Below are positions 11,800-17,960 of a stretch of DNA of 51,084 nucleotides, one piece after another (position 1 is the stretch's first letter; every line of letters begins with the position of its first letter). The notes beneath the pieces were generated by a model. It made no database searches. It was not told the DNA's origin and saw only the letters and a program-made list of their open reading frames with translations. Position numbers and translations under genes: made by a program. The DNA is from OCS116 cluster bacterium AG-390-I16. GTDB taxonomy: Bacteria; Pseudomonadota; Alphaproteobacteria; MED-G09. Location of the stretch: positions 1-51,084 of the forward strand of contig QCGZ01000007.1 of assembly GCA_003279705.1 (NCBI GenBank), given 5' to 3'.

Positions 11800-14700
11800 A
11801 TGAAAATACTCGATTATAAAATTTTTAAAATTACTATTTTTCACTTTATTATTCTCATGTTAATTACGCCTTTTCCATTGAAAGCAACTGAAAGTGATAT
11901 TGAGGAAATATTAGTTGTTGGGAGTAGAATAAATAGTCAAAATTTAAAGAAAATTTTGCCGGTAACCATTATTAACTCTGAAGAGCTGAAAGTTTTAGGT
12001 ATTGACTCTGGCGATGATCTTATAATGAGTCTCGTTGAAAACGGTACTAACCGATTTAATGATGCAGGTAATGCAATAGCTGGCGTAAATAGTGCTCGCG
12101 GTGATATGGGTGCATTTAATCTAAGAAATCTAGGAACTGGTAATACTCTTGTTCTTATGAATGGGAGAAGGTTGATTAATTCACCAAGTTTTCAATCCGA
12201 GTCAGTAGGTGGAAGTTTTGTCCCCGTTAATTCTGTTAATACAAATATTATATCTGTTAATGGTATTGAAAGAGTTGAGGTTTTAAGAGATGGTTCTTCA
12301 GCAATATATGGCGCTGATGCTGTCGCAGGAGTTATTAATTTTGTAACTAAAAAAAATAGAGAGGGTTTTGAATTTAATTTTAAAAATTCTGAATTTGAGA
12401 ATTTTGATAGATCTGATTACCAGTTTGGTTTTGTTTATGGATCAAGCTTTAACTCAAGTAGAACTAATATTAATATTAGTTACAATCATTATGAAAGGGA
12501 ACCAATTAAGGCTAGTGAAGATAAAAGAATGGGTATTTCTGATTGGAGAGACTTCCCTGAAATTGCCAGTACTGAATGGGCAACGACAAGATTTAGAAGA
12601 AATTCTATAAATTCACCTTATGGACAATTTGATTTCGTTGATAATATAAAAGGATATGAGTTTTATAAAGAAAGAGGCCTAACTGATAGTTCAGGAGAAT
12701 TTGAAATTTTTCCATCATCAGACCCAAAGTGTTTAGCTGATCTCGGAAATCAATCTTGTATTGCTAAAGATACTTCAACTAAGCGATATAATTTAAATCA
12801 AGAAAGGTGGGTAGTATCAGATTTAGAAAGAGATAATTTTCAGTTTGACCTTTCGCATGAATTTAAAAATGGTGTAGAAGGTTTTACTGAATTTTCTTTT
12901 TATAAATCAAAAACTAAACAAAATAATAGTCCATCAGCAGCATTTTCTTCCTCTAAATTAGTAGTTCCGTCAAGTAATTATTGGAATCCATTTGGTGCAA
13001 AAACCTTTGCTGATGGTGCTATAAATCCTAATCGTTTAAGCGAGAATGATGCCCCTGGAATTCCTGAGGAAGGATTATCTATAATTATAGATAATTATCG
13101 TTATGTAGATGTAGGGCCAAGAAAGATAAATGTTGAAAAAGATACTTATAGAATACTGCAAGGTTTTAGAGGGTCGTTTAATAATTGGGATTGGGAAATT
13201 GCTGGATTTATTTCCGAAGCTTCATCTGACGATATTACAAGTAATAGATTATCTAATTCTTTAATGGAGCAAGCTTTATCAATTTCTACTCCTGAGGCTT
13301 ATAATCCATTTAATGGTGGTGGAGATTTCGATAAATATCTTCTTACAGGTCAAGACGGAACACCAAGCATAGATGGTGCAATTCAAAACGCAATTATCGA
13401 TGTTTATAGGAAAGGTAAGAGAAAACTAAATAGTATTGATTTTAGATTTAATAATGTTGATTTTATTAAAAGTCCTGGTGGATTTACATCTATAGTTCTT
13501 GGTGCTGAGTATCGTGAGGATTCTTTTGAAGATGATAGAGATCCAAGACTTGACGGAACTATCCAATATACTGATAGGGATGGTGATACATTTCCATTTG
13601 TTAGTGATGTTATGAATTCCAGCCCTACGCCTGATAACTCAGGGAAAAGAGATGTTTTCTCAGCCTTTGTTGAATTTGGAATACCTTTGATATCTAATGA
13701 AATGGGGGTTCCTTTTATTAAAAATTTTAATCTTCAGCTGGCGGCTAGATATGAGGACTTTTCTGATATTGGCAGTAAATCAGTGCCAAAAATAAGTTTT
13801 GGTTGGCAGGTAGATGATAGTTTTTATTTTAGAGGTTCATGGTCAAAAGGATTTAGAGCTCCTAATCTTGTCCAGGTTAATGAGACAATAGTATCGAGAC
13901 AAATTTTCGGAGTTGATGCTCTCCTATGTCTTCAACAAATAAATAACAACGGTGAGATAGATTATTGTGATTATTCATTTCAAAGAGTTGCAAGGGGTAG
14001 TAAAAATTTAAGGCCCGAGGAGTCTACGAATATTTCTCTGGGAATTATTTATGAACCAAAAAATATTGATAATTTAGTCTTTACTATTGATTGGTGGGAG
14101 ATTGAAAAAGAGGACACTATAGGCTTATTTGGAGAGGATAATATTCTTTTATCTGATTTAGTCTTAAGGATGGAGACAAATAATATTTCAGATTGTTCTT
14201 TAGTTCAGTCAAGTCCTTTTGTTTTTCGGGACGCACTGGAAGAAAATGAGATTCAAGATTACCTTAAAGCTGGAATTTGTCCTGCAGGAAGAGTAACTCG
14301 TGTTGAGGAAAAGTATAGAAATCTTGATACAAGAATTATAAGCGGTTTTGATTTTTCAACTCGTTACTTTGTTAACAGCGATTATGGAAATTTTAATTTT
14401 ATAGTTAATATTTCTAAATTAGAAAAATTCAGACAAAAGGCAGGAAATGATTTTATTGAGTTAATAGATGCTCAAGAAAAAGATATTATTCCTGAGGAAT
14501 TAGCAATTACAGGTTTTTCTGATTTAATTGAAAAAGATGGTTCTCCAAAAATTCAGGCTAATTTTAAATTTCTTTGGAATAGAGGATCTTGGGGCCTTGG
14601 TTTGTTTGGCCGTCACATAGGTGAATTCTATGAAACAAGAAATAAATTATCTGATGGAAGGCTATGGAAGGTTAAAGCTTATAATACAATTAACACTTTT

Positions 14701-14868
14701 ATAGATTATAATTTTAAAATATCTGGCTCTCAATCAAATTTACGGTTTGGTATTAATAATATCGCCGATGAGAGAGCTCCCCTGGCATCTGATATATTTG
14801 GTTACTATATTGATAAACATGATAATCTAGGTAGATCTTACTACATTAATTTTATCCATAGATATTAG
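11800..14868 (+). CDS. TonB-dependent outer-membrane receptor (1022 aa)
   Basis: The signal peptide covers residues 1-29 (FHFIILMLITPFPLKA), followed by EEILVVGSR at 35-43, the usual TonB-box region. The plug holds FNLRNLGTGNTLVLMNGRRL and VEVLRDGSSAIYGADAVAGVINFVT, typical of the large receptor class with a long barrel and extended external loops. The C-terminus ends in tyrosine (INFIHRY), suiting BAM recognition. It is about 150-230 residues longer than the other two complete receptors here. Its stop is 4 bp before an exported M14 carboxypeptidase, so the pair is almost certainly one transcription unit, which points to peptides or peptide-linked ligands as cargo (inference). Confidence 0.95.
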   Translation: MKILDYKIFKITIFHFIILMLITPFPLKATESDIEEILVVGSRINSQNLKKILPVTIINSEELKVLGIDSGDDLIMSLVENGTNRFNDAGNAIAGVNSARGDMGAFNLRNLGTGNTLVLMNGRRLINSPSFQSESVGGSFVPVNSVNTNIISVNGIERVEVLRDGSSAIYGADAVAGVINFVTKKNREGFEFNFKNSEFENFDRSDYQFGFVYGSSFNSSRTNINISYNHYEREPIKASEDKRMGISDWRDFPEIASTEWATTRFRRNSINSPYGQFDFVDNIKGYEFYKERGLTDSSGEFEIFPSSDPKCLADLGNQSCIAKDTSTKRYNLNQERWVVSDLERDNFQFDLSHEFKNGVEGFTEFSFYKSKTKQNNSPSAAFSSSKLVVPSSNYWNPFGAKTFADGAINPNRLSENDAPGIPEEGLSIIIDNYRYVDVGPRKINVEKDTYRILQGFRGSFNNWDWEIAGFISEASSDDITSNRLSNSLMEQALSISTPEAYNPFNGGGDFDKYLLTGQDGTPSIDGAIQNAIIDVYRKGKRKLNSIDFRFNNVDFIKSPGGFTSIVLGAEYREDSFEDDRDPRLDGTIQYTDRDGDTFPFVSDVMNSSPTPDNSGKRDVFSAFVEFGIPLISNEMGVPFIKNFNLQLAARYEDFSDIGSKSVPKISFGWQVDDSFYFRGSWSKGFRAPNLVQVNETIVSRQIFGVDALLCLQQINNNGEIDYCDYSFQRVARGSKNLRPEESTNISLGIIYEPKNIDNLVFTIDWWEIEKEDTIGLFGEDNILLSDLVLRMETNNISDCSLVQSSPFVFRDALEENEIQDYLKAGICPAGRVTRVEEKYRNLDTRIISGFDFSTRYFVNSDYGNFNFIVNISKLEKFRQKAGNDFIELIDAQEKDIIPEELAITGFSDLIEKDGSPKIQANFKFLWNRGSWGLGLFGRHIGEFYETRNKLSDGRLWKVKAYNTINTFIDYNFKISGSQSNLRFGINNIADERAPLASDIFGYYIDKHDNLGRSYYINFIHRY

Positions 14869-14872
14869 ACAA

Positions 14873-16144
14873 ATGAGAGTTTTTCTTTTTTTGTCACTTT
14901 TTTTTGTTTGTGACTATACCTTTGCTTCTATTAAACAAGATAGCCAAAAATGTACTACCGATTTAGTCACAATTGATTTTAATTTTTCCGGTGGAGGTAA
15001 TTCAGTTTGTGAAGTTATATCCTCAGATCATATTAAAATATTAGTAAAACCTGAGTCCAAAGATTCTATTAACCCAAGCCCATGGTACGCATTTCGAAAA
15101 TCAAAGCATATAAAAAAAATTCTTTTAGAGCTTGATTATGGAGAGTATGAGCATAGATATTTTCCAAAAATAAAAAAAATTAACAGCGGCTGGGAAAGAC
15201 TAAATAAGAGTGATATTTTATTAAAAAATGATGGTAAAAATGTTTTTATAAATTTTTATCCATCAAAGGAAGATCAATATATATCATCACAGGAATTGAT
15301 CACTGAGGATTGGTACGAAGATTGGTATAAAATTTTAAAAAAGAACAAATTTTTGAAAAGTAAGATCATTGGATATTCTGTTCAAAATCGTCCAATTAAA
15401 GCATTTTTTTCAAATGAGAATATTAATAATCCATTTATTTTAATCTTGGGCCGTCAGCACCCCCCAGAGGTTTCTTCAGTATTTGCAATAAAGGGTTTTG
15501 TAAATGAACTAATTGGAAATATTAATTTATCAGAAAAATTTTTATCAAAATACAATATATTTTTTGTTCCTTTAATGAACCCTGATGGCGTTGAGAATGG
15601 TTTTTGGCGTTATAATTATAATAAAAAGGACCTAAATCGAGATTGGGATAATTTTTTTCAACCCGAAACTTATTCAGTTAAGAATTTTCTTGATAATTTA
15701 AAAAATAGAAATCAACCTATTTTATATATAGATTTTCATTCAACTTATAAAAATATTTTTTATATTAGCGATGCACAACTTACAAATTCTCAGCCTAGTT
15801 TTTTATTAAATTGGTTAGAAAAATCTAGGTTAGAATTATCTAAAATCGGTTATAATTTTTCTATTAAAGAGTCTTATACAAATAGCAACAAGATATCGAA
15901 AAATTATTTCCACAATAAATACAATATACCTTCTATGACTTATGAAGTCTCAGATACTGAAGAAAGATCTAAAATTACTAAATCTTCCAAGATTCTTGCT
16001 AGGAATTTAATAACTATCTTATTAAATCCTGAAGATAAAATTATTGATATGGCGGAGAGGAAGGGATTCGAACCCTCGAGACGGTTACCCGTCTACACGC
16101 TTTCCAAGCGTGCGCCTTCGACCACTCGGCCACCTCTCCATTAA
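14873..16144 (+). CDS. Secreted M14-family zinc carboxypeptidase; reading frame runs through an antisense tRNA (423 aa as read)
   Basis: The signal peptide covers residues 1-18 ([15 protein letters not shown]). Zinc ligands are His196 and Glu199 (GRQHPPE) and His289 (IDFHST). The substrate-binding Asn-Arg pair is in DLNRDWD near 253-259, and the catalytic Glu is at 358 (MTYEVSD). All active-site elements of an M14 metallocarboxypeptidase are present, in a periplasmic enzyme. The domain ends near residue 390. The last 31 residues, from Met393, are the antisense translation of the tRNA-Ser gene at 16050-16139, and the first stop (16142-16144) lies just past it. The natural terminus may be this one, or a stop may have been lost. 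It follows the 1022-residue TonB receptor by 4 bp. Confidence 0.88.
16050..16139 (-). tRNA. tRNA-Ser(GGA)
   Basis: A 90-nt class II tRNA. Acceptor stem GGAGAGG (16133-16139, minus strand) pairs with CCTCTCC (16054-16060), followed by G73 and an encoded CCA (16050-16052). The anticodon stem CACGC/GCGTG encloses the loop TTGGAAA with anticodon GGA at 16103-16105. A variable arm and the T-loop sequence GGTTCGAATCC are present. It would decode UCC and UCU. It begins 18 bp after the lepA stop on the same strand and overlaps the 3' end of the carboxypeptidase reading frame on the other strand. Confidence 0.97.
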
Positions 16145-16157
16145 ATTCACCTTAAAT

Positions 16158-17960
16158 CTAATTTTCATCAAACTTAAGTGCTGATATAAATGCATCTTGA
16201 GGAATATTTACACTTCCAAACTCGCGCATTCTTTTCTTTCCTTTCTTTTGCTTTTCTAATAATTTCTTTTTTCGGGTAACGTCACCGCCATATAATTTTT
16301 CGGTAACATCTTTTCTAAAAGGCGGTATCGTCTCTCTTGCAATTACTCTGGCACCAATGGCTGCCTGAACAGGTACTTTGAATTGATGGCGGGGTATCAA
16401 ATCTTTTAATTTCTTACACATTGTTCGACCGCGCATATCCGCTCTGTCAGCATGTACAATTATTGATAATGCATCAACTGTTTCAGAGTTAACTAGTACA
16501 CTCATCTTCACTAATTTCTCTTGTTTGTATGTATCCATTTGCCAGTCAAAGCTTGCATAGCCACTTGAAATTGATTTTAGTCGATCATAAAAATCAAAAA
16601 CGACCTCATTTAATGGCAGATCATAAACTACCATTGCTCTTGTTCCAGCATAAGTTAATTCAACTTGATTACCTCTTCTTTCTTCGCATAATTTTAATAC
16701 TGCGCCCAGATATTCATCAGGTACAAGAATAGTCGCCTTAATCCAAGGTTCCTCAATATAATTTATTAAACTAGGGTCGGGCATATCTGCAGGATTATGA
16801 AGGTCAATACATTTACCATCATTAAGATAAATTTTATAAATAACACTTGGAGCGGTAGTAATTAGATCAATATCAAATTCTCTTTCTATTCTCTCTCTTA
16901 CTATTTCAAGATGAAGAAGGCCTAAAAAGCCACATCGAAAACCAAACCCAAGGGCTGCAGAATTTTCTGTTTCGTGCTGAAAACTTGAGTCATTTAAACT
17001 AAGCTTTTCTATAGATTCTCTTAAGTCTTCAAATTCTCCGCTATCGACTGGAAATAAGCCACAAAAAACAGATGGTTGTGATGGTCTAAATCCTTTGAGC
17101 ATTTCTTTACAGGGTTTTTTATCATCAGTTATCGTGTCACCTATCTGAGTATCTGATACCGTTTTTATACCTGCGATAATGTAACCTAATTCGCCAGGTC
17201 CTAATTTATTTACTGATACTTTTTTTGGTGTAAATACCCCAATATCATCAATTTCATAGGTACTGTTTGTACCCATCATTTTTATTTTTTGTCCTTTTAT
17301 TAATTCACCATTTATTACTCTAACCAGAACTATTACGCCCAAATATGAATCATACCAACTATCAACGAGTAAAGCTTTTGTTTCTTCAATATCACCGCCA
17401 GATGGAGGGTTTAATCTCTCTATTAGAGCTTCAAAAATATCATCTATTCCCTGGCCTGTTTTAGCCGAGACATATATTGCATCTGACGCATCGAGGCCAA
17501 TAACATCTTCTATTTGCATAGCAACTGTTTCAGGCTCTGCAGCAGGTAAATCAATTTTATTGATAACAGGAATAATTTCGTGATCAAGATCGATAGCTTG
17601 ATAAACATTTGCAAGCGTTTGAGCCTCAACCCCTTGTGTTGAGTCAACAACTAATATTGATCCTTCACAGGCTGACAAAGATCTACTAACTTCATAAGCA
17701 AAATCAACATGACCAGGGGTATCAATCAAATTAAGCTGAAAATTTACACCATTTTTATCTTTATAGTTTAATCTCACAGTTTGCGCTTTGATTGTTATTC
17801 CTCTCTCTCTTTCAATATCCATGGAGTCTAAGACCTGATCTTTCATCTCTCTATCAGTCAGTCCATCACAACTCTGAATTAATCTATCAGCAAGGGTAGA
17901 TTTGCCATGATCAATATGAGCAATAATTGAGAAATTCCTAATATTTTTAATATCTGTCAT
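16158..17960 (-). CDS. lepA: Elongation factor 4 (LepA), 600 aa
   Basis: Translational GTPase. G1 AHIDHGKST (near residues 14-22), G2 in [11 protein letters not shown]3 DTPGHVDF and G4 NKID are all intact. Later domains include the EF4-specific segment [22 protein letters not shown] and the closing [20 protein letters not shown], characteristic of the LepA C-terminal domain. The length equals the usual 595-605 residues. It acts on the ribosome, where it back-translocates tRNA or assists 30S biogenesis. The tRNA-Ser gene follows 18 bp after its stop and may share its transcript. It follows pheT by 32 bp on the same strand. Confidence 0.98.

Follow-up and report, generated by a model that had tools for sequence, protein, structure and literature searches.

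The window, the 51,084-nucleotide stretch of DNA analyzed as a whole, contains an open reading frame for an M14 zinc carboxypeptidase at positions 14873 to 16144 of the forward strand. The frame encodes 423 amino acids, starting with an N-terminal signal-like segment, has no internal stop across its 423 codons, and ends with a TAA at 16142 to 16144. A tRNA-Ser(GGA) gene with an encoded CCA end lies on the reverse strand at 16050 to 16139 (ARAGORN; Rfam RF00005, 59.4 bits at 16053 to 16139). It is contained wholly within the peptidase frame, and its 5' end is separated from the peptidase TAA by 2 bases. The gene at 16158 to 17960, identified by sequence as lepA (elongation factor 4), shares the strand of the tRNA, begins the region just upstream of it, and is convergent with the peptidase. 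The host is a small-genome marine alphaproteobacterium belonging to a PS1-clade (OCS116) genus. The initial annotation had described a frame running through the entire antisense tRNA gene, with 31 terminal residues translated from it and the TAA 2 nt past the tRNA 5' end, and all of these details proved correct.

Residues 159 to 374 match the Pfam family Peptidase_M14 (PF00246) with a score of 67.4 bits, above the curated cut-off of 21.6 (E = 2.1e−18). The motif HxxE ... H and a downstream Glu are present as H196, E199, H289, and E358, which are invariant in an alignment of 14 homologues and which, from knowledge of the family, we take to be the zinc ligands and the catalytic Glu. The product is an M14-type protein with predicted zinc carboxypeptidase activity. 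No match to NCBIfam was found for either the whole protein or the tail.

The conserved protein ends at residue 384 to 387 in the 14-way alignment, and the last helix in an AlphaFold2 model spans residues 365 to 384. On the basis of the homologue end point and the predicted fold, the conserved peptidase part was assigned to residues 1 to 384 (14873 to 16024, forward strand). It is followed by a bridge of former 3' spacer that has become coding (residues 385 to 392, 16025 to 16048) and by a 31-residue C-terminal tail antisense to tRNA-Ser (codons 393 to 423, 16049 to 16141). The extra sequence thus amounts to ∼38 residues, of which ∼8 derive from the former spacer and 31 are antisense to the tRNA. 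The last recognizable domain residue had been placed near 390, which is too far downstream given that the Pfam match ends at 374 and the homologues and last helix end at 384 to 387. Residues 392 to 423 have a pLDDT of ∼30. The mean for the model is 72.6, and because the underlying 11-sequence alignment is shallow, only the contrast between the two values counts. The tail is therefore predicted to be disordered, and it lies outside a complete M14 domain.

Extended and short peptidase forms in related genomes

The locus was compared across 18 genomes of the family. The extended form was found in the window genome (G000) and in four relatives (G004, G005, G007, and G008), in each case with 423 codons, the tRNA in the same phase, and the TAA in the identical place. 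These are five species-level genomes of the genus, available as separate public records, and their peptidases share 86 to 87% protein identity. A short form with the convergent order retained was found in G002, G003, G006, G009, and G011, where the peptidase stop lies 1 to 26 nt before the tRNA (6, 17, 17, 26, and 1 nt; four of these species belong to the genus and the fifth to a sister genus). The four short-form species of the genus show 52 to 54% identity, and in the other sister genus, the peptidase has no adjoining tRNA. The overlap is conserved beyond one assembly, and relatives carry the shorter form.

The window genome is a draft of 30 contigs with 77% completeness, so a sequencing or assembly error could have masked a stop or frameshift ahead of the tRNA, which the initial annotation had named as a possible refutation. 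However, the identical frame is present in five separately assembled species-level genomes, with true substitutions between them in the bridge. These assemblies rule out sequencing error as the source of the overlap and leave this explanation with a negligible probability.

The extended-form sequences group together in a maximum-likelihood tree, as one clade with 100/100 support. Together with the short form in relatives, this would make a single loss of the stop, in the subclade's ancestor, the simplest history that explains the pattern, and we infer that the shorter peptidase is the ancestral form. A tolerated coding overlap and the loss of an original stop had been offered as alternatives. 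At the level of sequence, both are true, as the stop appears to have been lost once in an ancestor and the overlap has been kept in five species. Spacer lengths and phases vary between lineages, so an indel may have been involved.

We propose that the peptidase of the subclade ancestor stopped a few bases short of the 3' end of tRNA-Ser and that a substitution or a small indel within the 3' spacer would have removed this stop. Because stops hardly ever occur on the antisense strand of tRNA-Ser, the new stop would have fallen just past the tRNA 5' end, and the outcome would be a complete M14 domain carrying a tail of ∼38 residues, including 31 that are antisense to the tRNA. A convergent gene-tRNA overlap created by stop codon loss, with a tail that is tolerated and not selected, is very probably the correct explanation.

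Two further features were observed in the extended-form genomes. The G000 peptidase gene looks recombinant: codons 1 to 200 are 95 to 99% identical to G005 and G008 and 73 to 91% identical to G004 and G007, while past codon ∼200 the pattern is reversed and the gene shares the 3' part of G004 and G007. The G004 tRNA differs in the base preceding its CCA end (CTCCTCCA instead of CTCCGCCA; L004 codon 394, position 2680 to 2682), an unusual discriminator for tRNA-Ser that may reflect an error in sequencing or amplification.

Openness of the antisense frame and evolution of the tail

Among 43 distinct tRNA-Ser sequences from the loci compared, the three antisense frames are free of stops in 40, 33, and 42, and the frame used here is open in most tRNA-Ser matches in 144 alphaproteobacterial genomes. 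Antisense frames through tRNA-Ser are thus open as a rule. If a convergent gene ahead of a tRNA-Ser loses its stop, its frame will therefore nearly always extend across the whole tRNA, and since the tRNA itself holds the frame open, openness over this region is no evidence of selection on the protein.

A genuine gene that spans an entire tRNA is, by contrast, out of the ordinary: the tRNA loci scanned in the window genome include just one large gene with homology support that does so, the peptidase. No independent homology-supported long gene over tRNA-Ser was clearly seen among the longest open frames in the 144 alphaproteobacterial genomes. Two of these cases, both from high-GC genomes, were examined in full and rejected as shadow or out-of-frame ORFs. 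In one of the two, G161, the real convergent gene stops ∼15 nt before tRNA-Ser. Further ORFs that lie antisense to tRNA-Trp and tRNA-Lys genes of the family lack a Pfam match and are probably spurious.

The only part of the extension that is informative about selection is the bridge (codons 385 to 393), which comprises a mere nine codons. G007 and G008 differ at 8 of its 27 bases, with 7 of the changes nonsynonymous, and the pN for this pair is 0.31 to 0.35 compared to 0.12 in the domain (Fisher P = 0.016). The bridge evolves like noncoding sequence or a free tail, with no measurable amino acid constraint. The idea that the tRNA fixes part of the peptidase sequence accordingly stands for the tail and falls for the enzyme domain: the tail lies outside the domain and is predicted to be disordered, and the bridge codons are unconstrained.

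Persistence of the open frame counts against a neutral tail in that it is intact in all five species seen, where the bridge shows substitutions and no indels. However, short spacers in this window kept their length in 8 of 13 (G008) and 16 of 26 (G007) comparisons, and in a small simulation, 8 random neutral substitutions created a stop in 21 to 25% of trials. The frame had about an even chance of surviving neutrally, so that its persistence does not need selection. This test of neutrality is weak because G000 is recombinant and shares its 3' part with G004 and G007, which leaves only about two independent deep lineages. No sign of selection on the tail was found in the bridge codons, the predicted disorder, or the estimate of neutral survival. 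We infer that the tail is translated, and it is probably tolerated, nonadaptive, and without function.

Transcription across the locus and possible roles

No intrinsic terminator was found between the peptidase and the tRNA in a search of positions 14700 to 16600, which makes overlapping transcripts plausible. In distant alphaproteobacteria, too, lepA is found on the strand of tRNA-Ser(GGA) and directly or almost directly upstream of it (16050 to 17960 in the window; L135; L139), which suggests an old synteny or cotranscription. The same sequence precedes tRNA-Ser in ten genomes.

The overlap might have been kept for a function, either mutual regulation of tRNA-Ser(GGA) and the peptidase mRNA, which would include a full antisense copy of this tRNA, or a useful basic, proline-rich tail. 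Its retention in five species, the lack of a separating intrinsic terminator, the stable folding of the antisense mRNA segment (z = −2.8), and the mutual antisense regulation proposed for Shewanella selB-selC are consistent with such a role. However, folding of the antisense strand follows from its complementarity to the tRNA, and the short-form species share the convergent order, so an antisense transcript would not need a coding overlap. Combined with the unconstrained bridge codons, the predicted disorder, and the likelihood of neutral persistence, this makes retention for function improbable. The specific proposal that pairing between the peptidase mRNA and pre-tRNA-Ser ties expression of the peptidase to the supply of tRNA-Ser, and that the overlap was kept for this reason, is very improbable.

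The frame could also be open while the tail is rarely or never made, through early transcript ends, collision with convergent tRNA transcription, or rescue by tmRNA of an mRNA without a stop. The peptidase is transcribed toward a convergent tRNA gene of a kind that is normally highly expressed, and nothing speaks directly against this scenario. However, if the mRNA ended short of its sole stop, each copy would require ribosome rescue. This should favor an earlier stop, and none has arisen in five species. We therefore consider an unmade tail quite unlikely and favor stop loss with a translated, tolerated tail.

Comparison with other convergent overlaps

The closest parallel is the selB gene of Shewanella and Ferrimonas, in which a C-terminal extension is antisense to the selC tRNA-Sec gene (Mukai 2021, PMC8124441, section 2.4), while Photobacterium damselae has kept a stop between selB and selC (Mukai 2021, PMC8124441). 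Both loci have a convergent protein-coding gene that continues across the strand complementary to a tRNA and thereby acquires a C-terminal tail, and in both cases a relative retains the stop. The two cases differ in that SelB and tRNA-Sec work together, and regulation was suggested for that pair, whereas no link is known between the peptidase and tRNA-Ser. selB-selC was the only direct precedent for a bacterial gene-tRNA antisense overlap in our literature search, which covered few subscription journals.

Stop loss has been described as a route to convergent overlaps (Palleja 2008, PMC2478687; later study, PMC4161906), and 54 convergent overlaps of >60 bp were judged possibly real, most of them conserved in very close species only (Palleja 2008, PMC2478687; also PMC4161906). 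Those studies concern pairs of protein-coding genes, whereas the partner here is a tRNA. AntiFam lists false proteins over tRNA genes (PMC9710616), and the peptidase tail taken alone resembles them as a plain translation of antisense tRNA. It differs in ending a genuine conserved gene, whereas the AntiFam entries are free-standing false predictions. A spurious ORF of the AntiFam type was ruled out by the 384 residues of conserved M14-type protein ahead of the tail.

The peptidase/tRNA-Ser overlap is real, inherited, and of a kind already known from selB-selC. It is best seen as a modest consequence of dense gene packing, the likely reason for such overlaps. It provides a clean case of a protein gene absorbing the antisense strand of a tRNA while the unextended form survives in close relatives, and it shows how easily such overlaps form when the antisense frames of tRNA-Ser are open. 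For annotators, it is a warning that a true gene may truly end in residues that look like antisense tRNA. Our understanding of the peptidase or the tRNA is not changed by the overlap.

A second overlap was found in the family. In four species of a sister genus (G010, G012, G014, and G016; L151 to L154), a gene for a DUF6580 membrane protein (78.9 bits) has its stop 27 nt inside the antisense strand of tRNA-His, and in other genera the DUF6580 gene has no adjoining tRNA. Taken together, the two loci indicate from their sequences that convergent gene-tRNA overlap arose at least twice in the family. In both, a convergent gene ends in or beyond an antisense tRNA, but the DUF6580 overlap is partial at 27 nt, whereas the peptidase covers the whole tRNA.
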